DNA from: a virus
Virus record (IMG/VR): IMGVR_UViG_3300047560_001024
Location: 1-57,610 of that record
Length of the DNA: 57,610 nt
Reading direction: 5' to 3' (one strand)
Shown here: positions 15,119-47,128 of the stretch, piece by piece
Layout of the letters: each line of letters opens with the position of its first letter
Numbering within the stretch: position 1 is the first letter of the stretch
The notes under the pieces: model-generated
The model's input: only the letters and a program-made list of their open reading frames with translations
Database searches by the model: none
What the model was told of the DNA's origin: nothing
Made by a program: the position numbers and the translations under genes

Positions 15119-15126
15119 TATAAATA
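15119..15126 (+). promoter_or_regulatory. Late promoter TATAAATA, leaderless, for 15132 gene
   Basis: This perfect T4 consensus octamer ends 5 nt before ATG 15132. In T4 late promoters the octamer spans -13 to -6, so +1 would be the A of ATG. There is no ribosome-binding site. Confidence 0.7.
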
Positions 15127-15131
15127 TCTAC

Positions 15132-15581
15132 ATGACAACCAAGATTAGATGTACCACACTGTTTAACATCACTAAAACTGGGGTACCTAACCGCAGAACT
15201 CCTGCAGGAATACCCCAAGAGAAAGTAACTGAGTGGGAGAAGAATAGAAACAGTCAAAGTAACTTTGACACAATCATTCAGGTTCTCTCGTTGAGAACAC
15301 AACCTGAAGATATTTCTACTCCTGTGCAAGATATTATTGTGTTTAACGAAGCAGATAGGTTTGGGTTTCTGTTTGAGAATGAAGAAGCACAACCAATATG
15401 GACTTTTGACTTCACGGTCAACTACGATAATGTATATAGCGACGGAATCAATGATTTGGGCGCATTATACTCTGACTGTGACGGAGTACCCATGATTAAG
15501 AATCTAGGAGAGTGGAGCAAACTACCTAACTTTTTAGATTCTAGCGCAGAATTAAGGAATATTCACTTTGAAATTATCTAA
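15132..15581 (+). CDS. Conserved T4-like phage protein, unknown function
   Basis: This 149-residue protein opens TTKIRCTTLFNITKTGVPNRR, followed by QSNFDTIIQVLSLRTQPEDI, then FGFLFENEEAQPIWTFDFTVNY. I recall this family from T4-like marine phages, where it is also without a function. It starts directly at a predicted late transcription start with no leader and overlaps the next gene by 14 nt, so the two are probably made together. Confidence 0.7.
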   Translation: MTTKIRCTTLFNITKTGVPNRRTPAGIPQEKVTEWEKNRNSQSNFDTIIQVLSLRTQPEDISTPVQDIIVFNEADRFGFLFENEEAQPIWTFDFTVNYDNVYSDGINDLGALYSDCDGVPMIKNLGEWSKLPNFLDSSAELRNIHFEII

Positions 15582-16056
15582 GTCCAAAGAAAAACGATTC
15601 TATAATGTTCTACATGACATTATTGCGGATACTGCATTCGACCAACTTGAGAGTAAGATTATCTACAAAGAGGGTAGTCAGTATAAGTTGTTTGGGCAGT
15701 ATACAATTGACAAAGTTGACACAGCATATCATGTAAGCAAGATTAACGTAGCTGGGGAAAAAGTATTCTCAGACCTACGTTATGCAGTTGCATGGTCTAC
15801 TTTAGACAAACTGAACCGTGTATGGGATGCAAATAGAATCTGTCAATTAGACAAACAGTTAGCAGATACTACGGTTCAATATAAACAGCATTCTAAGCTA
15901 CTTCAAAAAGCAAAGGATATCGATACATACGTCTTGTTCAAGACTAAAATCGGTGAAGATTTAGTAAAGCAGGAACTAGCTTCCCGCGAGATAAACGAAT
16001 ACGTGAGATTCGCTAAAAATTGGCAAAATAACGTCTTTCGTCAGGCTACTAAATAA
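15568..16056 (+). CDS. Hypothetical late protein
   Basis: This 162-residue protein has a basic N-terminus (KLSKSKEKRFYNVL), a strand-rich middle (QYKLFGQYTIDKVDTAYHVSKIN) and a helical C-terminus (CQLDKQLADTTVQYKQHSKLLQKAKDIDTY). It starts at ATT-TTG-AAA; the exact start is probably TTG 15568 inside the upstream gene. It is likely a virion or assembly protein from its position among late genes. No domain is recognised. Confidence 0.6.
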   Translation: MKLSKSKEKRFYNVLHDIIADTAFDQLESKIIYKEGSQYKLFGQYTIDKVDTAYHVSKINVAGEKVFSDLRYAVAWSTLDKLNRVWDANRICQLDKQLADTTVQYKQHSKLLQKAKDIDTYVLFKTKIGEDLVKQELASREINEYVRFAKNWQNNVFRQATK

Positions 16057-16065
16057 ATTGAAATT

Positions 16066-16073
16066 GATAAATA
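16066..16073 (+). promoter_or_regulatory. Late promoter octamer GATAAATA for 16100 gene
   Basis: It lies 26 nt before ATG 16100, with AGGGA as ribosome-binding site. Confidence 0.65.
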
Positions 16074-16099
16074 CTATATCAGTTCTTTAGGGAAAAACT

Positions 16100-16837
16100 A
16101 TGAAACTATCAGAATTTAACAGCAATCCAACTACAGTCGCTAAGAGAGCGTTGGAAGAACACTTCAACACGAAGTTTAACGTTGACCAATTAGGCCTTTT
16201 CGAAACAAAGAAAATGCTTAACAAAGTCAAAGGTCTAATCCGCGAAAGCAAGACTGTAGAATCACAAAACAATCCAGCATACTTGAAACTAGTATTCATG
16301 GAACAAGCATTGACACATCACTATGGTGATTTGAAAGCAATGCCAATGTACAATCAACGTATCGTTGTAGAAAACGAGCAAGTTGAGAAGTCACAAGTTA
16401 TCTTGGCTGCACAAGAGATGGTTGACTCAATCCAGAAGATGGTTGAGCAAGTATCTGACATGCTAGTTAAAGAATTACCAGCAGTTGTTGACGGTGTTAA
16501 CAGCGAAGTTGGTACAAACGAAGGTCAACAATTCAATGACCAAGTTACTCAAGCATTGACTTCATTGCAAGCAGCCTTGACTGGTTCAAAGACTGGTCTA
16601 TCAGGTGCTCTAGGTGTTATCACTGGTCAAGCAGGTGGCTTTGATGCTACTGGCGCAGCAGCAGGTGCAGAGCCTGACATGGGTGCTGAACTAGGTGGTG
16701 ATGATATGGGTGCTGAACTAGGTGGTGACGACTTAGGCGGTGATGATATGGGTGCTGAACTAGGTGGTGACGAAGCTCCAGCTGATTTAGAAGAACCAGA
16801 AGAAATCGCAGGGACAGTAGGTAGAGCTACTCGTTAA
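16100..16837 (+). CDS. Virion/prohead protein with acidic Gly-rich repeat tail
   Basis: This 245-residue protein has a helical N-terminal two-thirds (MLNKVKGLIRESKTVESQ, AYLKLVFMEQALTHHYGDL, VEQVSDMLVKELPAVVDGV). This is followed by a low-complexity acidic tail of four D-D/P-x-M/L-G-A-E-L-G-G-type repeats (DNA 16676-16780). Acidic tails of this kind occur in T4-like prohead core proteins such as gp67/gp68. I recall the N-terminal family from marine T4-like phages. The core/scaffold assignment is inferred. The repeats are near-identical at DNA level, suggesting recent slippage. Confidence 0.6.
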   Translation: MKLSEFNSNPTTVAKRALEEHFNTKFNVDQLGLFETKKMLNKVKGLIRESKTVESQNNPAYLKLVFMEQALTHHYGDLKAMPMYNQRIVVENEQVEKSQVILAAQEMVDSIQKMVEQVSDMLVKELPAVVDGVNSEVGTNEGQQFNDQVTQALTSLQAALTGSKTGLSGALGVITGQAGGFDATGAAAGAEPDMGAELGGDDMGAELGGDDLGGDDMGAELGGDEAPADLEEPEEIAGTVGRATR

Positions 16838-16838
16838 T

Positions 16839-17162
16839 ATGAGACTCTTTGAGTTTGCGGACGCAGATCCATTACGTGTAAAGTTGACTGGCGTCGCTAG
16901 TCAACTTAACCAACTTGTCCAAGGCTCAACTGAAAAGCTTCCGACAGAAGAATTCTTAAAACTATTACGTCAAAATGGCGTTAACTTAGGTAAAGAAGAC
17001 TTGTTCGACATTGTGCATAAAGATCCATTGAAAAACATCATTGCCAATGTTAATGCACACGAAGTAACATTCAAAACACAAGAACCAGACGAAGCACCCG
17101 AAGGCGATGCTGACGAAAATGCAAAGATTCGACAGCAAATGGCAAGCAAACAAGTCGGTTAA
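16839..17162 (+). CDS. Small late protein, unknown function
   Basis: This 107-residue helical protein has VKLTGVASQLNQLVQGSTEKLP, EEFLKLLRQNGVNLGKEDLFDIV and an acidic C-terminus (EPDEAPEGDADENAK). It starts 1 nt after the stop of the acidic-repeat protein and is surely co-transcribed with it. This suggests a role in the same prohead or virion assembly step. Confidence 0.6.
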   Translation: MRLFEFADADPLRVKLTGVASQLNQLVQGSTEKLPTEEFLKLLRQNGVNLGKEDLFDIVHKDPLKNIIANVNAHEVTFKTQEPDEAPEGDADENAKIRQQMASKQVG

Positions 17163-17171
17163 CCAAATAGA

Positions 17172-17200
17172 TTGTACTACGAAGTAATTTGTAGTACAAT
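17172..17200 (+). promoter_or_regulatory. sigma70-type early promoter with inverted repeat, leaderless, for nuclease gene
   Basis: TTGTAC (17172-17177), a 17-nt spacer and TACAAT (17195-17200) are followed by 6 nt before ATG 17207. A perfect 9-bp inverted repeat (TTGTACTAC 17172-17180 and GTAGTACAA 17191-17199) covers both hexamers, as an operator would. Confidence 0.7.
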
Positions 17201-17206
17201 TTCCAT

Positions 17207-17893
17207 ATGTACATTCCCGATAAATTTATATACCAAGCAATCAAACGAGTAGATACCCCCGAAGGTCGCAGATATGCTACTCCTGATGGACAAAAGCTAC
17301 CATCAGTAACTACAGTTCTTTCAGCAACTACCCCCGAAGATAAAAAGCAAGCACTGCAAAACTGGCGCAATGCAGTAGGACCCAAGAAAGCGCAAGAAAT
17401 ATCAACGGAAGCCGCAAGTCGCGGGACACGTATGCACAAGTGGCTCGAAGACTATGTTAAAACAGGAGCAATAGGTGTACCAGGTTCTAATCCATATTCC
17501 ATTCAAAGTCACCAGATGGCTAATTCTATTATCCAACAGGGCCTTGCAAATTGCAGTGAGTTCTGGGGCACAGAAGTTCCGTTATACTTCCCTAGTGTGT
17601 ATGCTGGAACTACTGATTTGGTCGGCGTCCATGATGGTAGTGAATCTATCATGGATCATAAGCAGACTAATAAACCCAAGAAACGAGAGTGGATTGATGA
17701 CTACTTTATCCAACTTGCGGCTTACGCAACGGCTCATAATGAGTTACACGGAACGAAAATCCGCAAAGGGGTTATTTTTATGTGTGATCCGAACGCTGTG
17801 TACCAAGAGTTCATCATAGAAGGTACTGAATTCGACCACTATCAGAATGAATGGTATAAACGATTGGAATTGTTCTATACCCAGTTCGTATAA
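17207..17893 (+). CDS. PD-(D/E)XK nuclease, RecB/Cas4-like
   Basis: This 228-residue protein carries the RecB-type nuclease motifs in order: R72-G-T-R-M-H77 helix, E123 in FWGTEVPLY, D137 in AGTTDLVG, the D150-x-K152 of SIMDHKQTN, and Q169-x-x-x-Y173 in FIQLAAYA. Such enzymes cut DNA with metal ions and act in recombination or host DNA breakdown. It sits alone among late genes but has its own sigma70-type promoter, so it is expected early. The ATG is placed at the predicted +1, without leader. Confidence 0.8.
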   Translation: MYIPDKFIYQAIKRVDTPEGRRYATPDGQKLPSVTTVLSATTPEDKKQALQNWRNAVGPKKAQEISTEAASRGTRMHKWLEDYVKTGAIGVPGSNPYSIQSHQMANSIIQQGLANCSEFWGTEVPLYFPSVYAGTTDLVGVHDGSESIMDHKQTNKPKKREWIDDYFIQLAAYATAHNELHGTKIRKGVIFMCDPNAVYQEFIIEGTEFDHYQNEWYKRLELFYTQFV

Positions 17894-17898
17894 ACGAT

Positions 17899-17906
17899 GA
17901 TAAATA
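17899..17906 (+). promoter_or_regulatory. Late promoter GATAAATA with hairpin for 17931 gene
   Basis: A perfect 9-bp inverted repeat (17906-17914 and 17922-17930, 7-nt loop) begins at the last base of the octamer and ends at the ATG. Late transcripts should start inside the 5' arm and escape the hairpin. Confidence 0.7.
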
Positions 17907-17930
17907 GTATAATCACATAAAGATTATACT

Positions 17931-20198
17931 ATGGCTATCGTACAAATCTCAAAAATCATTCACAGAACCGGTGCAAACGTAGACTTGCCTCAATTAGATG
18001 CAGGCGAATTTGGTTATGCAACGGATCAACAACGACTATACATCGGTGACGACTATATCGCTCACCCTCCTGTATCTGAAAGTTCTACTACACAAACTGA
18101 GGTGTTAACTGAGCATAGTACGCTAAGTTTCAACAAGATAGGTGGAGTAGCGAACACATCATTAACTTTAAATGATGTTCAAACTGGACAAATTTTAGTA
18201 GCATCCGGCAACGTAAGTGTCGGTAATGCTTGGACTAACTGGGACGGAGAACTAATCGGCCCAGATGATATCAAACTACAACTAGGTGCAGCAGAGACAC
18301 TTTCAATTAACGGTGGTTTGAACGGTTACTTCCTACAAACAGATGGTCAAGGTAATTTAACTTGGACAGATTCAGTAGGTGAAGTTACTATTCAAGGTAC
18401 ACCCGGTGGTTCAAACACACAATTGCAATTTAATGACGCCGGTGACTTTGGTGGCAGCGCATATTTAACATATAACAAAGTAACACACGCACTAACAGTT
18501 GACGGTGAGTTCAATGCTACTGGTAATATCAACGGTAACATTTCAGGAACTCATTTTGGTCCTGTAGGTAACGCAACAGTACGTTCAAGTGGTGAGTTCA
18601 CTACAGTTACAACAGTTTCTACAGCTATCATCGGTGGTAATATTACTGCTGCAAATGTAAATTCTACTGGTGAAGTAGTATCTTCAGGTAATGTTACCGC
18701 ACAGAACTTAGTGACAGCCGGAGAAGCAAACGTTGCAACATTAAATGTTACTGGCAATGTTGTTACATCATTGTTACCTGACACTGATGGTACAAAAGAC
18801 TTAGGTTCTTTCTGGCAAAGCTGGGGTAACCTATATATCAAGGGTGGAAATATTACATTAGGTAGTCGTGTACTTTCAACTGACGACTTTAACTTAATTG
18901 TTGATGGTGGGTTAACCGCGTCAAACGCTACGTTTGATACTAGTGTGTCGGCAGCTACATTAACTGGTACATTGACCACACACGCACAACCAAATATTAC
19001 TAGTGTGGGTACGTTAACATCATTAGCTGTTACTGGTGTATCTAATTTGGGTAGCAATGTCGCTAACATCAAATTGGGCGGCGGTGGCAATGGCTTCTTG
19101 TTGGGTACAGATGGTTTGGCAAATCTACGTTGGGTACCTAATACTGAACTATTGCGTAAGCCTTCAGGCTCTAACACACAGATTCAATATAATGATGGCG
19201 GCGACTTCGGTGCAGACTCAGGTCTTGTATATGACAAGTCTACTAGTACACTAACAACAAGTTCAATACAACTTGCTGGTACATTAAGAACAATCGGTAA
19301 CATTACTACTGCTCAAGTTAACAGTAACGGAACAATCACCGGCACAGTTATCACAGCAAATACACGCTTTGTAGGTAACGGTGCAAACTTGTCACAACTT
19401 AACGGTGCTAACGTCACTGGTACGGTAGCTAACGCAACCACAGCCGTGTTTGCTGGTACTGTTACTACAGGTAATCAACCTAACATTACTGGAATTGGTA
19501 CTCTAAGTAGTTTAAGTGTCACTGGTACAGTGGCTGCTGGTAACGCAAGCGTTGTCAACACGTTGACTACTAACAAGATTCAAACATCTTCTATTGTTGG
19601 TAACTTAATTCCAGACGCAAGCGGTACTCAAAGTTTAGGTACAGCCGCAAAGCGTTGGAAAGAATTGTATCTTGCTGGAACAACTATTTACTTAGGAACA
19701 AGTGTTCTACAGGATACTGGTGGTGCTCTAACTACAAACATAATTGGGTCTAACTCTGCATACGTAGGCGATGCAACATTAAGCACACAGATTGATGTAA
19801 TGTCTATCGTAAGCAGCACAAACAACTTATTTGTTTCTACAGACGCTGCCGGCGTAAGTTTATTATCAAAAGCTAACCAATCTGGTTCTGGTGTTTACAT
19901 CATGGATAGCACAAATACTGTGTCTGTACTAATTGATGACGGTACGGGAGCTGCAATTGAAACAGTTAAAGTAAATAACACTGGGTTGCTACCGGCAACA
20001 GGTGATGTGTACGATTTGGGTGCCGATGACAGACCTTGGAACAAAGCAGTTATCACCACAACAAAGACTAAAACACTTGACTTGAATTTAGAAGACGATT
20101 CAGGTACATTCAGTATGTTTGCAAATGTTAATGGTATCTTTGTTCGTAACAACATGACCGATGCGGTGTTCTCTGTCAACCTAACTCCGGTGGTCTAA
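17931..20198 (+). CDS. Tail fibre-like virion protein
   Basis: This 755-residue protein has an N-terminal IVQISKIIHRTGANVDLPQL plus GEFGYATDQQRLYIGD, as in phage receptor-binding/fibre N-termini. Long Asn/Thr/Gly-rich repeats follow (HAQPNITSVGTLTSLAVTG, STGEVVSSGNVTAQNL). The module GSNTQLQFNDAGDFGGS...LTYNK occurs twice (about residues 165 and 420). The same repeat vocabulary appears in the larger fibre at 38863. Such sequences form trimeric beta-structured fibres. Two segments, TDGTKDLGSFWQSWGNLYI and ASGTQSLGTAAKRWKELYL, are repeated fibre modules (xLGxxxxxWxxLY). Confidence 0.75.
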   Translation: MAIVQISKIIHRTGANVDLPQLDAGEFGYATDQQRLYIGDDYIAHPPVSESSTTQTEVLTEHSTLSFNKIGGVANTSLTLNDVQTGQILVASGNVSVGNAWTNWDGELIGPDDIKLQLGAAETLSINGGLNGYFLQTDGQGNLTWTDSVGEVTIQGTPGGSNTQLQFNDAGDFGGSAYLTYNKVTHALTVDGEFNATGNINGNISGTHFGPVGNATVRSSGEFTTVTTVSTAIIGGNITAANVNSTGEVVSSGNVTAQNLVTAGEANVATLNVTGNVVTSLLPDTDGTKDLGSFWQSWGNLYIKGGNITLGSRVLSTDDFNLIVDGGLTASNATFDTSVSAATLTGTLTTHAQPNITSVGTLTSLAVTGVSNLGSNVANIKLGGGGNGFLLGTDGLANLRWVPNTELLRKPSGSNTQIQYNDGGDFGADSGLVYDKSTSTLTTSSIQLAGTLRTIGNITTAQVNSNGTITGTVITANTRFVGNGANLSQLNGANVTGTVANATTAVFAGTVTTGNQPNITGIGTLSSLSVTGTVAAGNASVVNTLTTNKIQTSSIVGNLIPDASGTQSLGTAAKRWKELYLAGTTIYLGTSVLQDTGGALTTNIIGSNSAYVGDATLSTQIDVMSIVSSTNNLFVSTDAAGVSLLSKANQSGSGVYIMDSTNTVSVLIDDGTGAAIETVKVNNTGLLPATGDVYDLGADDRPWNKAVITTTKTKTLDLNLEDDSGTFSMFANVNGIFVRNNMTDAVFSVNLTPVV

Positions 20199-20200
20199 AC

Positions 20201-20208
20201 GATAAATA
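20201..20208 (+). promoter_or_regulatory. Late promoter octamer GATAAATA for 20295 gene
   Basis: It starts an unusually long (about 80 nt) leader before ATG 20295. Other late leaders here are 0-40 nt. Confidence 0.65.
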
Positions 20209-20212
20209 CATT

Positions 20213-20278
20213 GTATGACTTACATGGGGTAAGTTTTATGCGGAAGTCCAACCGCGTAGTGGGTTAGAACCCGCATTT
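20213..20278 (+). promoter_or_regulatory. Structured 5' leader (three hairpins)
   Basis: Within the leader I see ACTTAC/GTAAGT (6 bp), ATGCGG/CCGCGT with an AAGTCCAA loop, and GTGGG/CCCGC with a TTAGAA loop, followed by an unpaired AAGGAGA ribosome-binding site. It probably protects or enhances an abundant mRNA. It does not fold as a tRNA. Confidence 0.45.
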
Positions 20279-20294
20279 TCAAGGAGAAAATAAA

Positions 20295-21530
20295 ATGGCA
20301 CGTCCTCTAAATAAAAAATATTTCGGTAACCGCAACGTCGGTACCGACGGCACAGCAGATAACGGCATCGGTGGTGAAGGCGTAGGTAGCGTCACAATCG
20401 GTACAGAAGGTACATACACTTCTGGTTTACCAACAGCAACATTCTCAACACCTGATATTCCAGGTGGTGTTCGTGCTACTGGCGTAGTTCATGGTCATGC
20501 ATTATCAGCAGCTACTACAAGTAACGGTACAGGATATAATGTAGGTGATGTATTAACAGTTGCTGGCGGAACAAGAACTTCAGCAGCTACTTTCCCAGTT
20601 GCAAGTATCACTACATTAGGCACACCTGGTATCACTAACGGTGGTTCATTGTACGATGTAACTGACGGTTCAGAAGGTGACAGAATTACATTCACTCACG
20701 CTAATTTGACAACAGCTTTGCGTGTTCGTGTTACTGGAGTTAGCGGTAGCACAGTAACTAGCATCGTAGTTGAACAAGCAGGTATCTGGAATGGTACTGG
20801 CGCGTTCCCAACAAGCATGGCTGATGGTGTAGGTGGCTTCACTGCAACTACAACAGCAAGAAGCGGCGGCGACAACAACGGTAACGGTTTAGTATTGAGT
20901 TTCTCTGGTTCTAACTGGGGTGTTTACTCATTCGGTACAGTAGCAGTTCAAGGTGATTACACAGTAGCTGCAAGTAACCCTGCTAGTTTCACTGGTGGTA
21001 CTGGTACTGGTGCAGCAGCGGACATCACTTACGGTGTTAGTGGTATTGTTGTTACACAAAAAGGTTCTGGCTACACAGCACCGAGCGATGCAGCAATCAC
21101 ATTCAGTGGCGGCACAGCTGCCGGAACATCAGTATTGACTACTGATTCAGGTTCTTACGGTACACCAACATCAGGTGATTTGATGAACTCTAATAACCAA
21201 GAAAATGCTATCCGCATGACAGCATACTTGACAGGTGGTTCTGCTTCTGAAGTTGATATTATCAAGCAAGTTGGCGCAAAGCGTTTCAAAGTTACTGACG
21301 GTACTCGTTCTGGTGTTGTAACATTGCAAGATTCATTGGCAAACGCTGCAGGCGAGGGTTCTATCGGTGCAGTTGACAGCGATGGTGGTACATACTTCAT
21401 CACAAAAATTGCTGCTCGTAGAGCAACAGTAACTCGTGGTACAGGTACACAATTTGCTACAGGTCAATCAGTTCCATGGAACATGACAGCCGCAGTTGCA
21501 AACGTTTCTGTTAAAATCTCTAACGCTTAA
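20295..21530 (+). CDS. Abundant virion structural protein (probable)
   Basis: This 411-residue Gly/Thr/Ser/Ala-rich beta protein begins MARPLNKKYFGNRNVGT. It has repeated G-Y-x-x-G-D-V-x-T-V-x-G-G-like units (NGTGYNVGDVLTVAGGTR, KGSGYTAPSDAAITFSGG) and ends NMTAAVANVSVKISNA. I recall similarly starting proteins as major virion components in T4-like marine phages. It has its own late promoter, a structured leader, an optimal ribosome-binding site and a strong terminator downstream, all consistent with high expression. Its place in the particle is unknown. Confidence 0.6.
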   Translation: MARPLNKKYFGNRNVGTDGTADNGIGGEGVGSVTIGTEGTYTSGLPTATFSTPDIPGGVRATGVVHGHALSAATTSNGTGYNVGDVLTVAGGTRTSAATFPVASITTLGTPGITNGGSLYDVTDGSEGDRITFTHANLTTALRVRVTGVSGSTVTSIVVEQAGIWNGTGAFPTSMADGVGGFTATTTARSGGDNNGNGLVLSFSGSNWGVYSFGTVAVQGDYTVAASNPASFTGGTGTGAAADITYGVSGIVVTQKGSGYTAPSDAAITFSGGTAAGTSVLTTDSGSYGTPTSGDLMNSNNQENAIRMTAYLTGGSASEVDIIKQVGAKRFKVTDGTRSGVVTLQDSLANAAGEGSIGAVDSDGGTYFITKIAARRATVTRGTGTQFATGQSVPWNMTAAVANVSVKISNA

Positions 21531-21546
21531 TTTTATTAAGCCCAAT

Positions 21547-21574
21547 AAAAAAGCCGCTTCATGCGGCTTTTTTT
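21547..21574. terminator. Bidirectional Rho-independent terminator
   Basis: The stem AAAAAGCCGC / GCGGCTTTTT with the loop TTCAT lies between convergent genes (20295 plus, 21978 minus). A-run and T-run flanks serve both directions. The Nudix stop codon is inside the stem. Confidence 0.9.
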
Positions 21575-21978
21575 ATTAGTTTCTTTAGTTTGTCTTGCAC
21601 TACGTCAAAGTTTATAGTGTTAAACAATCCAGGATGCAACGGCTTGGGATAGTGCTCGGGGTCAACCCAACAGTAACCACAATGTTCTTCATTTAGTATT
21701 GGTATAAATTCTTCTTCAACAACACAAAAGAAAGTGTGATACGTAAACAGATTGTTGATGAACTTTTGAATAGGAACAAGTTTAGCATCTAATGGAAAGA
21801 AATCAATTTCTTCCATACACTCACGTTCTATCCCCTCAAAGAGAGTTTCATCTTTCTCAATCTTGCCACCAGGTATTCCCCAGTTGCCTGCATTCTTATC
21901 ATCCGCTCTTAACAGAAATAAAAATCTATTTGTTTTCTTTGCGTAGAAAAAGACACCAGCAGATGTATTTTCAGTCAT
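21559..21978 (-). CDS. Nudix hydrolase
   Basis: This 139-residue protein has a Nudix box at 38-60: G-x5-E-x7-R-E-x-x-E-E (GGKIEKDETLFEGIERECMEE), with the usual final Gly replaced by Asp. It should hydrolyse a nucleoside diphosphate linked to another group. T4 NudE acts on ADP-ribose and ApnA, and the substrate here is unknown. A late-like GATAAATT sits 5 nt before the ATG, between the arms of an ACTAAT/ATTAGT repeat. A leaderless late transcript is therefore likely. It is the last gene of the minus-strand gp14-gp15 group. Confidence 0.8.
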   Translation of the reverse strand: MTENTSAGVFFYAKKTNRFLFLLRADDKNAGNWGIPGGKIEKDETLFEGIERECMEEIDFFPLDAKLVPIQKFINNLFTYHTFFCVVEEEFIPILNEEHCGYCWVDPEHYPKPLHPGLFNTINFDVVQDKLKKLIKKAA

Positions 21979-21983
21979 ACACT

Positions 21984-21991
21984 AATTTATC
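21984..21991 (-). promoter_or_regulatory. Late-like octamer GATAAATT (minus), leaderless, for Nudix gene
   Basis: Five nt separate it from ATG 21978. It is flanked by a 6-bp inverted repeat (21981-21986 and 21992-21997). There is one mismatch to the octamer. Confidence 0.45.
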
Positions 21992-21996
21992 ATTAG

Positions 21997-23367
21997 TTAG
22001 ATGACGATACTAAAATCTCCCTGGTCATAGAACCCTTCATAACTCTTGACCCACATTCTATTAACATAACGATATTGAACACCAGTTGTTAAGTTAGAAA
22101 CAAACTCAACAGCAGTGTGTTCGATACTGTTAAACACTACGTACCACTTGCCTTCTGTTGCGTTATATTGAATAATGTCATTGGCATTAGCTACGATAGT
22201 TCCCCACGCATTTGACTGTGATCCTTCACTACCTAAATCTTCGACAATTAGGTATCGTTGTCCATTGCTTACTTCAGGTAAACCTGTTCCGGGTACTTTG
22301 CGATATGGGTTGATGACGCTATCTACTGGCTCAAGCGTATCTTGTGGTAATGTATCCGGGTCAACATTGAATGACAACAAACGGTCATCGTTGGGGTTAA
22401 ATGCAATAGTACCTACAATCTCTGTATCCATGTATGGGTTTTGCAACCAAATCTGTGACACTCCCGCCTTCACTGAACCATATGGTCCCAAGAATGCACT
22501 CCAGTAAATGTTTGTGTTCGGACTATCAGGCAAGTCAGTAGATGCTGAGTTCGATGGCATGGGCTGGTTTTGTGGCAATACTTGTAATGTGTTACCGATG
22601 AACAGAATCTTATAACCATACGGAGTAATCTTCTGTCTAGTACCTAACAACAAATCATCATCTTGCATATCTGTAAGAGCATTGCCTTGGAATATACTTG
22701 CAATAATTTTGTGAATCACTCCTAGCTTTCTAACTTTAGCAGGCCCGCTAATCCAGATAGGCATATAGAACTTCCATGACATAACATCAATTGGGTTGCC
22801 TGTACCTACAGGGATACTTCTGCTACTGAAAGTTAGACCGTCTTGATAAACCACACTTAAACTTGTCCAGTCGATAAAGTTATCTGTGCTTTGAATTTCT
22901 AAAGCAGGATTGAATAATGTTCCTAACTGTTCAATCAACTCAAGTTTTTGGTTGTAGTTTGTAGTCCAAAAGTCTACAGTGATTCTTAGTGTGTATGGTA
23001 CAGGCATCATACGTTCTACTGTAAATGCTTGACCTTGTGTGCTTTCAAAACTTTGTGTGTCTTGATTGTATGTCTTTTGACGCACAGATAGTTTATCAAT
23101 GAATGTAGGATCTTGTGTACGTTTCTGGTCGTATTCTAGTCCACTGATGTAATATGTAATCATCGGTGCTGATGGCAAACTGCTTGCGCTGTTGTTAGCA
23201 ACAATAGTAGAGGCTTGTCTACTTGAATCACCGTACTGAATAGGCACACGAACAAGAATGTCGTTGCCTGCAGGATCCTTACCTTTAGTTACTTGCCAGT
23301 CGCTAAAGATTCTAGCAAATTGGACTAAGAATCTGCGTATCTGTGTATCATAAAAAAATTGTGCCAT
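21997..23367 (-). CDS. 15: Tail sheath stabilising/completion protein, gp15-like
   Basis: This 456-residue protein has the conserved start MAQFFYDTQIRRFLVQFARIFSD. This is followed by VPIQYGDSSRQAS, APMITYYISGLEYD, VERMMPVPYTLRITVDFWTTNYNQKLELIEQ, DWTSLSVVYQDG and PIWISGPAKVRKLGVI. These match my memory of gp15-like proteins of marine T4-like phages, which cap the tail and join it to the neck. T4 gp15 is 272 residues, so the C-terminal 180 residues are an extension, including a NGQRYLIVEDLGS...YNATEGKWYVVFNS module. The gene follows gp14 by 8 nt on the same strand. Confidence 0.7.
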   Translation of the reverse strand: MAQFFYDTQIRRFLVQFARIFSDWQVTKGKDPAGNDILVRVPIQYGDSSRQASTIVANNSASSLPSAPMITYYISGLEYDQKRTQDPTFIDKLSVRQKTYNQDTQSFESTQGQAFTVERMMPVPYTLRITVDFWTTNYNQKLELIEQLGTLFNPALEIQSTDNFIDWTSLSVVYQDGLTFSSRSIPVGTGNPIDVMSWKFYMPIWISGPAKVRKLGVIHKIIASIFQGNALTDMQDDDLLLGTRQKITPYGYKILFIGNTLQVLPQNQPMPSNSASTDLPDSPNTNIYWSAFLGPYGSVKAGVSQIWLQNPYMDTEIVGTIAFNPNDDRLLSFNVDPDTLPQDTLEPVDSVINPYRKVPGTGLPEVSNGQRYLIVEDLGSEGSQSNAWGTIVANANDIIQYNATEGKWYVVFNSIEHTAVEFVSNLTTGVQYRYVNRMWVKSYEGFYDQGDFSIVI

Positions 23368-23375
23368 TGTTTACC

Positions 23376-24995: not shown

Positions 24996-25016
24996 TGTGT
25001 TTGTCCAATTATTATG

Positions 25017-25024: not shown

Positions 25025-25048
25025 ATAAAAGTTTTACCTTTATAGGAC

Positions 25049-28008: not shown

Positions 28009-28644
28009 ATGATACTTGGTGTTACAGGATTAATTGGAAGCGGTAAAGATACTATCGCTGATTACTTGGTTACGACTCATGGATTCAAACGTATTTCGTT
28101 TGCCTCGAGTTTGAAAGATGCAGTCTCATCAGTCTTCGGATGGGACAGAGAAATGCTAGAAGGAACAACTAAAGCTAGCCGAGCATGGCGAGAAGAAGTT
28201 GATGAATGGTGGGCAGAACGATTAGCAATGCCTAACTTAACGCCCCGCTGGGTTCTCCAATATTGGGGCACAGATGTGTTAAGAAATCACTTTCACACTG
28301 ATATCTGGGTCGCCGCAGTAGAGAACAAATTGCGTCAGACTACAGACAATGTTGTTATCACTGACTGTAGGTTTAGTAATGAAGTAAGTGCTATTAAAGC
28401 AGCTGGCGGCATAACTTGTCGTGTGTTCAGGGGCGAAAACCCCGTATGGTATCAGTCAGCAGTAGACTACAATCGTGGCCCAAATGGTAACTCAGGCTGG
28501 GCAGTGGGCAAGAGGGTACTAGACAAGTACAATATTCATCCTAGCGAATATAGCTCAGTCGGATTAAAGTACGACCACTATCTACAGAATGACGGGTCTA
28601 TATTAGACCTCCATACAGAGATTGAAAAGTTAATCAACCTCTAA
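28009..28644 (+). CDS. 1: Deoxynucleoside monophosphate kinase, gp1-like
   Basis: This 211-residue P-loop kinase reads GVTGLIGSGKDTIADYL (Walker A, residues 4-20), followed by RISFASSLKDAVSSVFGWDREML, LQYWGTDVLRN and NVVITDCRFSNE. These fit T4 gene 1 dNMP kinase, which phosphorylates dGMP, dTMP and hydroxymethyl-dCMP. A function in nucleotide supply is thus likely. The actual base substrates here are unknown. Its translation may be controlled by a hairpin that covers the ribosome-binding site. The 3' end overlaps a convergent HNH gene by 15 nt. Confidence 0.85.
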   Translation: MILGVTGLIGSGKDTIADYLVTTHGFKRISFASSLKDAVSSVFGWDREMLEGTTKASRAWREEVDEWWAERLAMPNLTPRWVLQYWGTDVLRNHFHTDIWVAAVENKLRQTTDNVVITDCRFSNEVSAIKAAGGITCRVFRGENPVWYQSAVDYNRGPNGNSGWAVGKRVLDKYNIHPSEYSSVGLKYDHYLQNDGSILDLHTEIEKLINL

Positions 28645-28971
28645 ATCACCCCGACGCCAGTTAACTTCTTTCTTCTTCACAACCTCAACACAATTGAGAC
28701 AGATAGAGCGTAGATTAGTTAGCTGGGTGTTCTCTAAGTCCCCGTCAATGTGAAACACAGTCATTTGACTAGAGAACAAACTCTTAAAGCCACATAAGTC
28801 ACATGTGGCTTTTTTCTTGTAGCCTGATTTATGCCATGATGGTTTTCTGGGCTTCTCTTTGTGCTTCTTCCTCCCACACTCATCACACATACTGCGATAG
28901 TGTGTCACCCCGTTCTTGACATAGTTCACTGCACACGGATTCTTGTTGCAGTGCTTACATATTGGTCTCAT
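28630..28971 (-). CDS. HNH endonuclease-like zinc protein
   Basis: This is a 113-residue protein starting at ATG 28971. A TTG five codons upstream is in frame but overlaps the late promoter. It has paired Cys motifs (CKHCNKNPC, CDECGRKK, CDLCGFK, CLNC) and an HNH-like core with FHIDGDLENTQLTNLRSICLNC. It is likely a zinc-stabilised HNH nuclease or a derived DNA-binding protein. I recall homologues in marine T4-like phages. A minus-strand ATTAAATA lies 4 nt before the ATG, so the mRNA may be leaderless. Confidence 0.7.
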   Translation of the reverse strand: MRPICKHCNKNPCAVNYVKNGVTHYRSMCDECGRKKHKEKPRKPSWHKSGYKKKATCDLCGFKSLFSSQMTVFHIDGDLENTQLTNLRSICLNCVEVVKKKEVNWRRGDLEVD

Positions 28972-28975: not shown

Positions 28976-28983
28976 TATTTAAT
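28976..28983 (-). promoter_or_regulatory. Late-like octamer ATTAAATA (minus) for HNH gene
   Basis: It ends 4 nt before ATG 28971, implying a leaderless late mRNA. It has one mismatch to the consensus. Confidence 0.45.
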
Positions 28984-32682: not shown

Positions 32683-32690
32683 GATAAATA
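32683..32690 (+). promoter_or_regulatory. Late promoter octamer GATAAATA for tail tube
   Basis: It follows the sheath terminator and lies 19 nt before ATG 32710, with AAGGAGA between. Confidence 0.7.
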
Positions 32691-34431: not shown

Positions 34432-34439
34432 TATAAATA
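34432..34439 (+). promoter_or_regulatory. Late promoter TATAAATA, leaderless, for 34445 gene
   Basis: This perfect octamer has exactly 5 nt before ATG 34445. No ribosome-binding site is present. Confidence 0.7.
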
Positions 34440-35244: not shown

Positions 35245-35270
35245 TAAATACTACTATTATAGGATAGTAG
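35243..35270 (+). promoter_or_regulatory. Late promoter AATAAATA with hairpin, before gp16
   Basis: The octamer (35243-35250) is followed at once by the inverted repeat CTACTAT (35251-35257) / ATAGTAG (35264-35270). The AGGA ribosome-binding site spans the loop and 3' arm. Confidence 0.65.
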
Positions 35271-35271
35271 A

Positions 35272-38765: not shown

Positions 38766-38782
38766 TAACAAAACCGTACTTG

Positions 38783-38812: not shown

Positions 38813-38834
38813 GGGTTCCCGTATTTTACTCAAC

Positions 38835-38842
38835 GATAAATA
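38835..38842 (+). promoter_or_regulatory. Late promoter octamer GATAAATA for the large fibre
   Basis: It lies 20 nt before ATG 38863, after the terminator. AAGGTG is the ribosome-binding site. Confidence 0.7.
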
Positions 38843-38862
38843 CATAATAAGGTGTACTAGAA

Positions 38863-41800: not shown

Positions 41801-43218
41801 ATACGGATCCTGGATTCGTTCCATTCACTGTAGGACAACGTATTACTATCAGCGGTGCAACCCCGTCTGCATGGAACGGTATTAACAAAGTAGTTACTGC
41901 GGCTAGTAACACATCAGTCACATATACTATCACCGGTGGCCCAATAGCATCAATGACTGTGTATGGCAAGATTATCGGTGGAGGTAACCTAACTATTGCA
42001 GGCGACCATGCTGTAGGTGGAAATCATACAGTAGGCGGAACACTATCAGTATCATCAAATGCAAATACAGGTAACTTAGGTACGCTTCATGTTGTGGCTA
42101 CTGGTAATATTTCAAGTGGAAATATTTCTACTGGTGGTGTGTTGAACGTTACAGGTAATGCTAACATTGGTAACGTAGGCATTCAACATATCGTTGCAAC
42201 TGGTTCTGCAAACATTTCAGGTAACGCAGCTATCGCCGGTAATCATAACGTAACTACAAATACTAACATTGGTGGATTGTTGAATATTGGTTCGAACATA
42301 GCAGTGACTACAGTTTCTTCTAATGCAACCGCAGCAATAATTAACTATCTTGACCAAGGTTACACACCGTTCACTGTTGGACAATCTGTTACTACCGCAG
42401 GATTTACTACATCAGCTTGGAACATGTCGGGTAAAACTGTTGCTAGTGCTAACTCAACACAAGTTGTTCTAACTATCACAGGTGGTCCACTAGCAACTGC
42501 ATCTGGTACTATTGGTAGAGTTACTGGCGGTGGTAACGTAAACGTGTTAGGTGACCACTCTGTTGGTGGCAATCATGTTGTTACTGCTAACGCAAACATC
42601 GGTGGTATCTTAAGTGTCGTTGGTAATATCAGTGGTGCAAACGTAACAGGTAATCATTATGGCAGCGGTGCAGCATTGACATCAATGAATGCAAGTAATA
42701 TTACATCAGGTACTATTTCTGCTAGTGTTATCCCTACACTAAACCAAAGCACAACTGGATATGCGGCTACTATTACTGCATCAGCACAACCTAACTTAAC
42801 GTCAGCAACTAACTTGACAAGTGTTGGTACATTAACTGCATTGAACGTTAATGGTAATATCTCGCACACTGGTTCTGAACTTAGTGTCGGTGGATATTTG
42901 TTGAGAAGTATCGGTGGTGGAATTGCTGCCGCAGGTACAACACTTGCGGCTGCTACTCAGTTAACTAAGGATATTAACATCGTTACTTCTGCAACGGCAA
43001 GTTCAGCAGACGGTGTTAAGTTGCCGGCAAGTGTAGGTATGACAGTTATCATCGTTAACACAACAGCGGCTACTATCAGAGTTTGGCCAAGTTCAGGCAC
43101 AGTCGCTATTGAAAACGTTACTGCTGGATCATCATATCCATTAGCCCCTGGTGCAAGACTAATGTTTATTTCAGCATCAACAACACAGTGGTATGCAATG
43201 ACAGGCGTGTACGCATAA
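38863..43218 (+). CDS. Giant repeat-rich tail fibre protein
   Basis: This is a 1451-residue protein. The N-terminus (INTGAFPNDSDADSIRSAFGKVQNNFTELY) resembles that of the 46040 protein and probably docks to the baseplate. Residues about 330-640 and 760-910 consist of a 14/28-residue repeat, G-N-A-N-x-G-N-x-G-T-x-H-x-x-A-T/S-G-N-A-N-I-S-G. Three globular inserts of about 85 residues follow one pattern (A-T-S...Y-T-P/D-F-x-V-G-x-x-I-T..G...G-G-G-x-L-T-x-x-G-D-H-x-V-G-G-N) near 690, 970 and 1150. A typical fibre C-terminal domain (IIVNTTAATIRVWPSSG) ends it. It should bind the host surface. Confidence 0.85.
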   Translation: MSQQNINTGAFPNDSDADSIRSAFGKVQNNFTELYGVTLSTGVVSASAGAGISVNRTTGNVTISSLMPSITIQTTNNMQVGVGTASGSTATVNDTRANVTPFVIGLKDSITLTSVAATNLSGRLTANSGQQPNITSVGTLSSLTSSGNITAPYFIGNIVTPSITAVTYSAPGSNTQIVFNNQGNMSASQNLTFTGNALNLTGAFTGTGNITTTANVNSGNARLGNRVDANYYYGNFMGPALTAGQVTSSAQPNITQLGTLTSLDVQGTITVQQMTVLQEFVAGNITGNLVGGNITPPGEDTQILFNDGGVAQAVAGFTFSKSSNLLSISGNVQGANLVSQGVLSVTGNGNVGNLGTLNVVATGNVNAGNIVSPGLLNVQGNANVGNIGTDGILYVGGNANLGNVGTTNILASGDVQGANLIATGNLQGANLITQGILSVLGNANAGNIGTRHIEASGNANISGILRVTGNANVGNIGIRHVEATGNANVAGRLSVTGNANVGNIGTGVVSATGNISGANLSTGGVLSVSGNANTGNVGTQHIEATGNANIAGVIVVTGNANTGNLGTTHIDATGNANIAGRIAVTGNANTGNLGTQHIVATGNANINGAATITGNANIGNVGVTHFVATGTANATHFNASGNIVAGNVTSNGAMNIGGNHNVTSNTAVGGAVSIGSNLVTITATSTGGNSTITFADQGYTPFAVGATITVTGVTPSGFNGTKTVLAANATSVTFAGSTSGPQAVAGRVAGGGSLTLAGDHSVGGNATITGAATISGNANTGNLGTTHFVASGNANISGVMSVTGNANTGNLGTTHFVASGNANISGAATITGNANTGNLGTTHFVATGNANISGAATITGNANTGNLGTTHFVATGNANISGAATITGNANVGNVGTTHFEASGNANISGVMKVTGNANTGNLGTTHFVASGSALVSGNHTVGSNHFVTSNTAVGGDHSVGANLSIVTATSSATSATLTYTDPGFVPFTVGQRITISGATPSAWNGINKVVTAASNTSVTYTITGGPIASMTVYGKIIGGGNLTIAGDHAVGGNHTVGGTLSVSSNANTGNLGTLHVVATGNISSGNISTGGVLNVTGNANIGNVGIQHIVATGSANISGNAAIAGNHNVTTNTNIGGLLNIGSNIAVTTVSSNATAAIINYLDQGYTPFTVGQSVTTAGFTTSAWNMSGKTVASANSTQVVLTITGGPLATASGTIGRVTGGGNVNVLGDHSVGGNHVVTANANIGGILSVVGNISGANVTGNHYGSGAALTSMNASNITSGTISASVIPTLNQSTTGYAATITASAQPNLTSATNLTSVGTLTALNVNGNISHTGSELSVGGYLLRSIGGGIAAAGTTLAAATQLTKDINIVTSATASSADGVKLPASVGMTVIIVNTTAATIRVWPSSGTVAIENVTAGSSYPLAPGARLMFISASTTQWYAMTGVYA
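41195..41660 (+). repeat. 84-nt tandem repeats within the fibre gene
   Basis: About five in-frame 84-nt units (28 codons, G-N-L-G-T-T-H-F-V-A-T/S...) occur. At least two adjacent units (around 41372-41540) are almost identical, pointing to recent unequal recombination or slippage. Confidence 0.85.
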
Positions 43219-43233
43219 TATTAAGGAGAAGTT

Positions 43234-43863
43234 ATGAGAGTAACAGTAGAATTATTACAGGCTTTATGCCCAAAGACAAAGCGTTCAGTATTAGAGTTAT
43301 ATGCTGAACCGCTACACGAAGTAGCAGAATACTACGACATGTATGATAATCCACATCGTATCGCTGGGTTCTTAGCGCAAGTTGCACACGAATCAGGTGG
43401 CTTTAACTTTGTTAAAGAAAACTTAAACTATGGTGCTAAAGGCTTGATGGGAACTTTTAAAAAGTATTTCCCAGATGAAGCAACTGCAAAAGCATACGAA
43501 CGTCAACCTGAGAAGATTGCTAATCGTGTTTATGCTAATCGTATGAATAACGGTGATGAAGCATCGGGTGATGGTTATCGTTTCTGCGGACGTGGTTTAA
43601 TTCAATTGACTGGACGTGCTAACTATACTAAGTTTGCAGAAGACTTGGGTATTTCTATTGAAGAAACTGTAGCATATTTAGAAACCCCTGCAGGGGCTGT
43701 TAGCTCTGCTGGTTGGTTCTGGGACAACAACAACTTGAATCAATATTGTGACAAGGATGATTTTGTAACATTGACAAAACGCATCAACGGCGGAACAATT
43801 GGTTTAGAAGATAGAAAACATCACTATCACTTAGTTTTAGATTTGCTACAACATCAAGGATAA
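43234..43863 (+). CDS. Endolysin, glycoside hydrolase family 19
   Basis: This is a 209-residue protein. The GH19 catalytic core is clear: AQVAHESGGFNFVKENLNYG with the acid Glu53, then YRFCGRGLIQLTGRANYTKF, ETPAGAVSSAGWFWDNNNLN and TKRINGGTIGLEDR. It should cut peptidoglycan glycan strands at lysis. No signal peptide is present, so a holin (probably 52655) is needed for export. The gene follows the fibre with an AAGGAGAA ribosome-binding site. A virion-bound role is not excluded by its position. Confidence 0.9.
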   Translation: MRVTVELLQALCPKTKRSVLELYAEPLHEVAEYYDMYDNPHRIAGFLAQVAHESGGFNFVKENLNYGAKGLMGTFKKYFPDEATAKAYERQPEKIANRVYANRMNNGDEASGDGYRFCGRGLIQLTGRANYTKFAEDLGISIEETVAYLETPAGAVSSAGWFWDNNNLNQYCDKDDFVTLTKRINGGTIGLEDRKHHYHLVLDLLQHQG

Positions 43864-43865
43864 AC

Positions 43866-46019
43866 ATGGCTCAACCAGTTTGGTTAACTGATGCAGGTGA
43901 CTTAGGTTCTTACCCATCAAATAGTAGTATTAGCATTCAGTTACAGTCTGAGGCAGTAGCACCTGCAACTAATATAACATATACGTTAATTAGCGGTAGT
44001 TTACCTACTGGTCAGCTAAATGCATTATCATTGTCAACTAGTGGTCTTATATCAGGTTTACCTGCAATCTTGAACGTTGATACTAAGTTCGACTTCACGG
44101 TTAGAATCACAGATGAATTCAGTAACTTTAGAGATAGAACATTCTCAATCACTGTTGCGGGCATTCAAAAGCCTACGTTCACTACACCTAAGGGTCAGAT
44201 TCTAAACATTTTAGATAGTAAGTGGACTGAGTTCCAATTACAATATTCTAATCCATTGCATGAACAAGTCGAAGTCGTATTGACTTCAGGTATTTTGCCA
44301 CCGGGACTAGACATAACTTCATCGGGTGTGATTAGAGGATATGCTGAACCGCCTCTCAACGGTCGCATTCCTGTAATCAAGACATATGATTTTACAGTCG
44401 CAGTTAAGAGTTCTTTAGGCATCCATACATCTACCTATTCTATTACTGTTAGAAACCATAGATTTACACATCCGTTAAACACTAGACCACCTGTAATCTT
44501 AAATAGTAGACCATTAAAATTGCCTTTAGATGCGGCCGATCCTTACTTTGATTATTACTTGATTAATGAAGACACTATCTATGTAGATAGCGGAGCGTTC
44601 ATCACATTTAAGATTATTGGTAAGGACTTTGACGGTGGCGATTTTGTTTATGAATTCAACGAACTACCACTGGGGCTTGTGGGAGATACTAAAACAGGAT
44701 GGATTAGTGGAAGACCTATTCTATCATCAAAGGGTATCAGTAAGTACAAGTTCAATGTAAGAGTTACAAAAGCAGATAACCCTACTATATTCAGCGAATT
44801 CTCAGAATACTTCTTTGCAGTTCGTAAAGAAGTTGTTCAAGACATTGAATGGATTTCACCTAGTGATTTAGGTATTATTTATAACGGTACAATAAGCGAC
44901 TTATCCGTTACAGCTACGTCATCGTTGCCATTGCAATATCGTATAGTCGGTGGTGCATTGCCACCAAACTTATCATTATCAGACACTGGCCACATTATAG
45001 GAAGAACTCCATTTCAACCCAATGAAGCACTAACGAAGAACGGTGATAAGACTGAGTTTACTTTTGCAATTCAAGCATACAACACTGACTATAACATGTT
45101 GAATGGGACTAAGACATTTACTCTTACAATTCAACAGTATTACGACAAGCCATTAGAGAATGTTTACATCAAGGCAGCTCCTGGAGTCCCCCAACGTAAA
45201 TTATTAAAAGCATTCTTAAATGATGAAACTATCTTCCCTACTGAAATGTTATTCAGACCTGAAGATCCTTACTTTGGTAAGTCATCGGTAGTTTCGTTTG
45301 TTCATGTATACGGTTCTGTGGCAGCTAGTCTAGAAACATACTTGTCTGCTATGGGCAAGAATCATTCTGATTTAAACTTGTTGATCGGTGATGTTAAGAC
45401 TGCTATTGCTAAAGACAAAGACGGCAACATCTTGTATGAAGTTGTTTATTGTGATATCATAGATGATGCTGACACCTCTGACAAGAGTATCTTCTGGGAA
45501 GTACCTATCAGTAGAAACTTAGGTCCATATGATACAGGCGCAGGTGAAATTTTTACTAGTGATGTATTTGGTAACAAGTTTCACACTAGTTTATCACCTG
45601 GTACAGTTAGAACGTTATACCCACCAGGGTTAAAGAATATGAGAGCACAAGTTGCATCGGTGCTAGGTCAAAACTTAGACAGCAATGTTCTACCTAAATG
45701 GATGACTAGTCAACAAGTTGATGGATCAATTATCGGATACATCCCTGCTTGGGTTATTTGTTATACAATAGCAGGCGCATCTGAAACTATTAGAGATAAC
45801 ATTATAAACAACATTGCATTCCCATTGAATACGGTTGAATTCACTGTTGATAGATATATCATTGACAAGAGTGGTACATTCAATTGGAATCCATACATGA
45901 CTGCAATGCCAGGATGGACTGAATTGCCTAGTGCAAGTCCAACTCCTAGCCCACTAGACACTGATGATTTGGTAGTCGTGTTTCCTGAGAAAACGATTCT
46001 ACCCAAGAACACATACTAA
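43866..46019 (+). CDS. Virion adhesin-like protein with Ig-like (He_PIG) domains
   Basis: This is a 717-residue protein. The first 430 residues hold four or so putative-Ig repeats with the signature L-P-x-G-L-x-L-x-x-x-G-x-I-x-G-x-P (ISGSLPTGQLNALSLSTSGL, LTSGILPPGLDITSSGVIRG, GGALPPNLSLSDTGHIIGR). The remaining part (QRKLLKAFLNDETIFPTEM, DPYFGKSSVVSFVHVYGS, WMTSQQVDGSIIGYIPAWV) recalls a conserved domain of large structural proteins in marine T4-like phages. It starts 2 nt after the endolysin stop. It is likely a baseplate or fibre component that meets surface sugars. Confidence 0.7.
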   Translation: MAQPVWLTDAGDLGSYPSNSSISIQLQSEAVAPATNITYTLISGSLPTGQLNALSLSTSGLISGLPAILNVDTKFDFTVRITDEFSNFRDRTFSITVAGIQKPTFTTPKGQILNILDSKWTEFQLQYSNPLHEQVEVVLTSGILPPGLDITSSGVIRGYAEPPLNGRIPVIKTYDFTVAVKSSLGIHTSTYSITVRNHRFTHPLNTRPPVILNSRPLKLPLDAADPYFDYYLINEDTIYVDSGAFITFKIIGKDFDGGDFVYEFNELPLGLVGDTKTGWISGRPILSSKGISKYKFNVRVTKADNPTIFSEFSEYFFAVRKEVVQDIEWISPSDLGIIYNGTISDLSVTATSSLPLQYRIVGGALPPNLSLSDTGHIIGRTPFQPNEALTKNGDKTEFTFAIQAYNTDYNMLNGTKTFTLTIQQYYDKPLENVYIKAAPGVPQRKLLKAFLNDETIFPTEMLFRPEDPYFGKSSVVSFVHVYGSVAASLETYLSAMGKNHSDLNLLIGDVKTAIAKDKDGNILYEVVYCDIIDDADTSDKSIFWEVPISRNLGPYDTGAGEIFTSDVFGNKFHTSLSPGTVRTLYPPGLKNMRAQVASVLGQNLDSNVLPKWMTSQQVDGSIIGYIPAWVICYTIAGASETIRDNIINNIAFPLNTVEFTVDRYIIDKSGTFNWNPYMTAMPGWTELPSASPTPSPLDTDDLVVVFPEKTILPKNTY

Positions 46020-46022
46020 ATA
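46015..46022 (+). promoter_or_regulatory. Late promoter octamer ACTAAATA for 46040 gene
   Basis: It overlaps the stop codon of the Ig-like protein and ends 17 nt before ATG 46040. Confidence 0.6.
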
Positions 46023-46039
46023 CTTCACGGAAAAATACT

Positions 46040-46852
46040 ATGAGTGACATTAATACAAACGGCATGAACATCAATTACCCTGTTCCAGGAATTAACAATT
46101 CTTCACAGGGTTTCAGAGATAACTTTGGTTCAATAAAAAACAACCTAGACATTACTAAAGATGAACTTTCAGACTTACAATCCAAAGTCTTAGTTAAGAG
46201 CGCATTAAACGGTACTACACTTAACAACGATATGGCAGGTGGTCAAATCTCTAATGTTGAGACTAAAACGTATAGAAAAAGTTCATATCATTTGGGTAGC
46301 GCATTAGAAGGCGTTATTGTTATTGATGTGACTAAAGGTGATGTACAGTATGGAACAGTTTCTGGCCCAGTAACTATTTACTTTGACAATTGGCCAGCGA
46401 CAACTGGTAACAAAGTAGTTCAAACTGAAATTCAAATCAGACTAATTGTTGAAGAAGGCTCAGTTATTACATTCCCTCCATCAACACATGATACTGATAC
46501 TGGAGAGTTGTTAAGTGGCCCAACAGCAAGCACACAGCAACTAGAAAACTTCGGCTCACAATACCTTGCCCCGGGTGTATTTAGTAACCAAGTAGGTGTC
46601 CCCAACGGTGTATCATTGCTAGTTTATAATATCAGTTCTATTGATTGCGGAACTACACTTGATATCTACCCAGTTAACAGAAACCAAAAAGCAGGTGGAT
46701 TGCAATTACGCACAATTACTGATGCTGTGGGATTACCCGGTGATGGTCCAGGTACCATCTGCTCAGACGGACAATACTTGTATCTATGTGTAGGTAATTA
46801 TGACGGGGAATCTCCTATCTGGGGTAGAATGCCGTTATACGTCATTTCTTAA
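46040..46852 (+). CDS. Tail/baseplate-associated structural protein
   Basis: This 270-residue protein has an N-terminus (MSDINTNGMNINYPVPGINN, then SSQGFRDNFGSIKNNLDITK) sharing the G-x-x-N-x-x-x-G-F/I-R-x-x-F-x-x-I/V-x-N-N pattern with the large fibre at 38863. The remainder is strand-rich (GPVTIYFDNWPATTGNKVVQ, IQIRLIVEEGSVITFPP, YLYLCVGNYDGESPIWGR). It is likely a short fibre or an adaptor using the same docking element. The function is inferred from this similarity. Confidence 0.6.
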   Translation: MSDINTNGMNINYPVPGINNSSQGFRDNFGSIKNNLDITKDELSDLQSKVLVKSALNGTTLNNDMAGGQISNVETKTYRKSSYHLGSALEGVIVIDVTKGDVQYGTVSGPVTIYFDNWPATTGNKVVQTEIQIRLIVEEGSVITFPPSTHDTDTGELLSGPTASTQQLENFGSQYLAPGVFSNQVGVPNGVSLLVYNISSIDCGTTLDIYPVNRNQKAGGLQLRTITDAVGLPGDGPGTICSDGQYLYLCVGNYDGESPIWGRMPLYVIS

Positions 46853-46875
46853 AAAGTTTCCACTCGTTGCTGACT

Positions 46876-46883
46876 ACTAAATA
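46876..46883 (+). promoter_or_regulatory. Late promoter ACTAAATA, leaderless, for 46889 gene
   Basis: It ends 5 nt before ATG 46889, and there is no ribosome-binding site. Confidence 0.65.
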
Positions 46884-46888
46884 TTTTC

Positions 46889-47128
46889 ATGCAACATCCC
46901 TTCATTGACAACACAGAACTAGCAAAGTTGAGTATAGACGAAATCGGTAAGAAGATTACCGATTTAACCGACAAATTAAACTTTGCATCCCGTAGCCGTA
47001 ACGCACCTATGGTCTATCAATTGCAGATGGTTTTAGAAAACTATCGTGCAGTATACTCTAGCAAAATGGATGAACTGTTTAAAAAGCAGAATTCTCAAAA
47101 TCAAATCAACATCGAAGGTTCAAAATGA
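46889..47128 (+). CDS. Small conserved late protein
   Basis: This 79-residue helical protein (NTELAKLSIDEIGKKITDLT, MVYQLQMVLENYRAVYSSKM) is probably oligomeric. It is coupled by ATGA to the next gene. I recall relatives in marine T4-like phages without known function. A leaderless late mRNA is predicted. Confidence 0.65.
   Translation: MQHPFIDNTELAKLSIDEIGKKITDLTDKLNFASRSRNAPMVYQLQMVLENYRAVYSSKMDELFKKQNSQNQINIEGSK

Follow-up and report, generated by a model that had tools for sequence, protein, structure and literature searches.

Phage T4 is a textbook system for late transcription, and its late boxes are placed at a good distance upstream of the start codon. In the T4 late promoter, an 8-bp box begins at -13, roughly one turn of the helix ahead of +1; there is no conservation at -35, and the promoter is read by RNA polymerase with gp55 (PMC2988020). 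The late promoters of the cyanophages S-PM2 and Syn9 contain the octamer NATAAATA (PMC2984593), and those of the jumbo phage AR9 have been defined by a consensus (PMC5312081). Leaderless mRNAs, known from bacteria and from the lambda cI gene, have a 5'-terminal AUG and no Shine-Dalgarno (SD) sequence, and it is mostly 70S ribosomes that bind them at this AUG (PMC9031893). A literature search, with most subscription journals outside its reach, found no precedent for leaderless transcripts made from T4-type late promoters.

The window, that is the whole stretch of DNA analysed (57,610 nucleotides), is a 57.6-kb virus record (G000) from a T4-type phage encoding tail sheath, tail tube, head-closure, replication and clamp-loader proteins. 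The closest named matches of its sheath belong to the jumbo phages Atu_ph07, Phosso and PA5oct, with about 41-48% identity, and a near-identity DNA search with a 24-kb stretch of the window gave no match among named phages. The near kin of the window are uncultured contigs of up to 367 kb, and from the sample types the group is read as one of freshwater phages. Single-protein scans with the products of genes 15132 and 46889 (genes are named here by the position of the start codon) returned no contigs; homologues were later found by whole-genome comparison. No bacterial genome matched the head-closure protein, and host assignment through the phage IF-1 was uninformative, the best bacterial matches having 46-64% identity across many phyla. 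It was also observed that separate short open reading frames at 9683-10815 and 47778-48284 match different parts of DNA polymerase/exonuclease families, which suggests that the DNA polymerase of the window phage is split.

The late promoters of this group resemble those of T4 (PMC2988020) in having an 8-bp box of the TATAAATA type, without a -35 element, before late virion genes, and relatives of the window encode gp55 homologues. A variant with C at -12 (NCTAAATA) resembles that of Aeromonas phage Aeh1 (PMC2988020). However, a large share of the octamers in the group lie 4-5 nt before start codons, whereas in T4 none occupies this position and the distances are mostly 12-29 nt. The cyanophages share the octamer, but the leaderless class is absent in S-PM2 and in 120 kb of Syn9. 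AR9 is also a giant phage, but it has multisubunit RNA polymerases of its own and measured leaders of 26-491 nt. A 5'-terminal AUG, here predicted, and the absence of an SD are common to this group and to the leaderless mRNAs of bacteria and lambda cI, whereas the T4 late-type promoter and the genome-wide use are particular to the group. When enrichment at 4-5 nt was tested in named phages, none was clear in T4, S-PM2, Syn9 (120 kb), Atu_ph07 (400 kb), PA5oct (280 kb) or Serratia BF, which had 0-2 matches, and it was weak in SCTP-2 (MF360958; 6 vs. 1.6), indicating that a known promoter type is used here in a way specific to the lineage. The six octamers of SCTP-2 lie exactly 5 nt before ATG, one of them at a GIY-YIG endonuclease-like gene; judged from this phage, the leaderless design may occur at a low level outside the clade.

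The features of the window are listed in Table 1. The first-pass annotation had placed an octamer exactly 5 nt before three start codons, and this was confirmed: NMTAAATA ends at that distance from the ATG of 15132, 34445 and 46889. Composition-matched permuted motifs occurred at 4-5 nt with a mean of 0.08, compared with the three sites observed. The variant octamers reported before the Nudix and HNH genes, at 5 nt and 4 nt respectively, were also found where they had been placed and are conserved in relatives; each has one mismatch to NMTAAATA and two to TATAAATA. All five sites recur in relatives. Of five genomes with the 34445 family, the gene is leaderless in two, G007 and the window, whereas the other three have it led, with the start of the protein unchanged. 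Of 51 Nudix sequences, 47 have GATAAATN 5 nt upstream of the ATG. In the HNH family, 18 of 19 related sequences have an octamer at 4-5 nt, and exact octamers occur in homologues. The homologues of 51494 have the octamer at 4-5 nt in four genomes. The remaining octamers before genes of the window lie mostly 17-26 nt upstream and are often followed by an SD site. In the window (21979-21998, minus strand) and in relatives, the Nudix promoter was observed to lie inside an imperfect inverted repeat, for example ACTATGAT AA ATCATAGT; the pairing of the outer arms is slightly above that of shuffled partners, 31 of 2000 shuffles reaching the same value.

Table 1. Promoter elements and associated genes in the window.
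Feature	Position	Strand	Remarks
Sigma70-type promoter TTGAAA, 17 bp, TAAAAT	187..215	+	6 nt before ATG 222; conserved in 6/6 genomes
Sigma70-type promoter TTGCAA, 17 bp, TAAAAT	12016..12044	+	6 nt before primase ATG 12051; conserved in 5 genomes
Terminator-like hairpin with A and T tracts	15084..15112	+	Directly upstream of the 15132 promoter
Late octamer TATAAATA	15119..15126	+	5 nt before ATG 15132
Predicted leaderless late gene, 149 aa, no assigned function	15132..15581	+	Leaderless in 4/4 genomes
Sigma70-type promoter TTGTAC, 17 bp, TACAAT	17172..17200	+	6 nt before exonuclease ATG 17207; conserved in 5 genomes
Nudix hydrolase gene, predicted leaderless	21559..21978	-	phrog_1198, E 4e-23
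Variant octamer GATAAATT	21984..21991	-	5 nt before Nudix ATG 21978
HNH endonuclease-like gene, predicted leaderless	28630..28971	-	phrog_10822, E 5e-4
Variant octamer ATTAAATA	28976..28983	-	4 nt before HNH ATG 28971
Led octamer GATAAATA (contrast)	32683..32690	+	19 nt before tail tube ATG 32710, with SD
Late octamer TATAAATA	34432..34439	+	5 nt before ATG 34445
Predicted leaderless late gene, 120 aa	34445..34807	+	Between tail-tube and head-closure genes
Late octamer ACTAAATA	46876..46883	+	5 nt before ATG 46889
Predicted leaderless late gene, 79 aa, no assigned function	46889..47128	+	Leaderless in 3/3 genomes
Sigma70-type promoter TTGAAA, 17 bp, TATAAT	48574..48602	+	6 nt before ATG 48609 (GroES-like)
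GATAAATA, near-leaderless	51479..51486	+	7 nt before virion protein gene ATG 51494

Counts for the group were made in five related genomes and the window (1.43 Mb in total), and a second set comprised 92 related loci and the window. In the first set, an octamer was found 4-5 nt before the ATG of 114 genes belonging to 69 families. Thirteen permuted motifs gave 0-6 such sites each in the same set of genomes, and a 14th, which shares register with the octamer, gave 15. Two relatives held out of the discovery set repeated the pattern, with 7 sites vs. 0.08 and 6 vs. 0.46 for permuted motifs. A second peak of 134-138 genes was present at 16-23 nt, with few genes at 6-15 nt. In the second set, sites at 4-5, 6-16 and 17-22 nt numbered 68, 19 and 191, respectively. 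The possibility was considered that these sites arise by chance in an AT-rich genome or from misassigned start codons. Taken as a word, the octamer shows no over-representation in the window, which would fit a chance motif; its signal is positional. The permuted motifs, the held-out genomes, the conservation within families and the aligned N-termini exclude this explanation, the probability of which is practically negligible.

Both designs occur within one family in eight families, and the changes of design inferred from trees were at least one in the 35272 family and three in the 34445 family. The led and leaderless designs are two discrete states, and homologous genes switch between them. 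The leaderless design proposed in the first-pass annotation was supported, but it is not a fixed property of a gene. Each of the three 350-kb genomes has 31 leaderless genes vs. 25-34 led ones. In the smaller records and the two held-out relatives the leaderless genes are fewer than the led, so that a share of about half is valid for the largest genomes only. From the sequences, a large share of the late genes in this giant T4-type group is predicted to have the late box set for an mRNA start on the start codon. As a separate observation, the leader of the led gene 35272 (window positions 35251-35271) contains an inverted repeat, CTACTAT..ATAGTAG, around AGGA, which is conserved in several led relatives; this repeat could mask the ribosome site.

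The two groups of genes differ in their translation signals. SD four-mers precede 5% of the leaderless genes vs. 64% of the led genes, where 8-10% is expected by chance, which bears out the earlier claim that the leaderless genes have no ribosome-binding site while other late genes do. The start codon of the leaderless genes is ATG in 114 of 115 cases and GTG in one. Led and leaderless homologues have identical N-termini, for example MTKKL and MARI, indicating that the start codons are correct. The folding energy of the first 40 nt differs modestly, with means of -1.7 kcal/mol for leaderless and -2.35 kcal/mol for led genes (p 0.007). The octamer precedes sheath, tube, tail fibre, baseplate, portal and terminase genes. 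The leaderless set includes the terminase large subunit, Nudix, HNH and GIY-YIG nucleases and enzymes, and the led set tail fibres, baseplate, portal, sheath and tube, a split that is descriptive, as the scans of the two classes drew on different libraries.

Several other interpretations of the two classes were rejected. If the assigned starts were wrong and an SD-bearing start lay downstream, SD sequences should be found at the downstream ATG or GTG codons; they were present at 7 of 45 (16% vs. 8% in coding sequence), which is too few. The idea that the leaderless design is a cassette for genes of recent acquisition was not supported: among leaderless genes 34%, and among led genes 28%, were without a homologue (p 0.43), as scored against the other two large genomes. 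The first base of the octamer does not serve as a class marker; GATAAATA is dominant in the led genes of the related loci, yet both classes have it genome-wide. Furthermore, GATAAGTA-like octamers, with position 6 changed from A to G, were seen exactly 5 nt before the ATG of 14 genes in G001, G002, G003, G007 and G008, including a ClpX-like gene in three genomes. These are perhaps a middle-gene variant of the leaderless design.

The T4 box had been described in the first-pass annotation as covering -13 to -6, a geometry that agrees with the published one (PMC2988020). When this geometry is applied to octamers that end 5 nt before the start codon (d=5), +1 falls on the A of the ATG. The predicted position of +1 thus stands at d=5, but not as one fixed distance, as d=5 was found in 68 genes and d=4 in 46 (five relatives and the window). 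Since both distances coexist, either the start varies by 1 nt or some of the mRNAs have a 1-nt leader. In the led promoters there is a peak of A at offset 5 past the octamer, which is the position of the start codon in d=4 genes, and this points to a common transcription start. It is very probable, on this sequence evidence, that T4-type gp55-dependent late promoters in the group start on the A of the ATG or within 1 nt of it and yield leaderless late mRNAs. On this reading, the octamer (-13 to -6, or -12 to -5) would be recognised by RNA polymerase carrying the late sigma factor of the phage, with no -35 element involved, and initiation would follow at the A of the ATG. The 5'-terminal AUG would be read by the leaderless route, that is by a 70S ribosome without SD pairing. 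A second, led architecture in the same phages combines an octamer 16-23 nt before the ATG with an SD. Many genes for tail, fibre and capsid proteins have it, and switches from one architecture to the other have occurred among homologous genes. Homologues of gp55 are encoded in six of nine relatives, and these six include all the largest; the profile of the gp45 sliding clamp gave a weak match, in two of the nine only.

Transcription might instead start 1-3 nt before the ATG, or at scattered positions, in which case the mRNAs would have a leader of a few nt and would not be strictly leaderless. The presence of both d=4 and d=5, and of a few sites at d=6-7 including that before 51494, is in keeping with such a pattern. 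However, the two peaks with an A at the expected position, together with T or C at -1 in 78% of the leaderless genes, favour a start on the A, and a short leader is considered possible but rather unlikely.

Another possibility was that the octamers, whether real promoters or relics, contribute little, and that the proteins are made mainly from longer read-through mRNAs by re-initiation at a stop codon close by. For 39% of the leaderless genes the distance to the upstream gene is below 25 nt, so that expression by read-through and re-initiation is also conceivable; furthermore, 73% follow a gene on the same strand. However, the hairpin ahead of 15132, missed by a simple terminator scan, has a folding energy of -17.2 kcal/mol (z -4.1), and its end is 19 nt upstream of the ATG, leaving little space for any leader, and the layout of hairpin followed by octamer is present in the family in four genomes (the window, G002, G003 and G008). 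Moreover, the main late genes and the Nudix and HNH genes are on opposite strands, and read-through gives no reason for the exact spacing of 4-5 nt to have been retained. Expression mainly by read-through is regarded as improbable.

The genomes also contain a leaderless class of the sigma70 type, in which TANAAT lies 6 nt before the ATG of 45 genes, a placement that sets the predicted +1 exactly on the ATG. TTG is present at -35 in 80% of this class, with a spacer of 16-18 bp that is nearly always 17, compared with 2-10% in the octamer class, where the background is 7%. The octamer class is without a -35 element and the TANAAT class has one, so that two promoter classes share a leaderless design, as had been proposed in the first-pass annotation. 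The resemblance of TATAAATA to a -10 hexamer, and the occurrence of a true sigma70 leaderless class in the same genomes, raised the question of whether the octamers are themselves sigma70 -10 elements of early or middle genes. The frequency of TTG at -35 argues against this. Moreover, where a family is mixed, led octamers precede the same genes in relatives. The assignment to sigma70 is very hard to sustain.

Translation of leaderless mRNAs has been reported to be enhanced by IF-1 and inhibited by IF-3 (PMC9031893), and huge phages are known to carry IF1, IF3 and S21 (PMC7162821). Genes for bS21 and IF-1 were found in the four largest relatives, G001-G004 (for example G002:251015-251167 and G002:274797-274985). 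IF-1 was absent from all eight named T4-type phages searched, three of which have bS21, and IF-3 was present in two of six tested. IF-1 was also absent from the smaller fragments including the window, of which incompleteness is a possible cause. The association of IF-1 with the leaderless design may reflect a single acquisition. It is conceivable, although quite doubtful, that the leaderless promoters, about half of the late promoters, form a second late channel that is free of SD sequences, and that the phage IF-1 and bS21 tune host ribosomes to 5'-terminal AUGs late in infection.

To our knowledge, leaderless translation in infected cells has been little studied. The switching of homologous genes between the led and leaderless designs, with few intermediates, offers a natural paired comparison under one polymerase. 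Moreover, the leaderless design costs less than 20 bp per gene and bears on the packing of promoters between phage genes.
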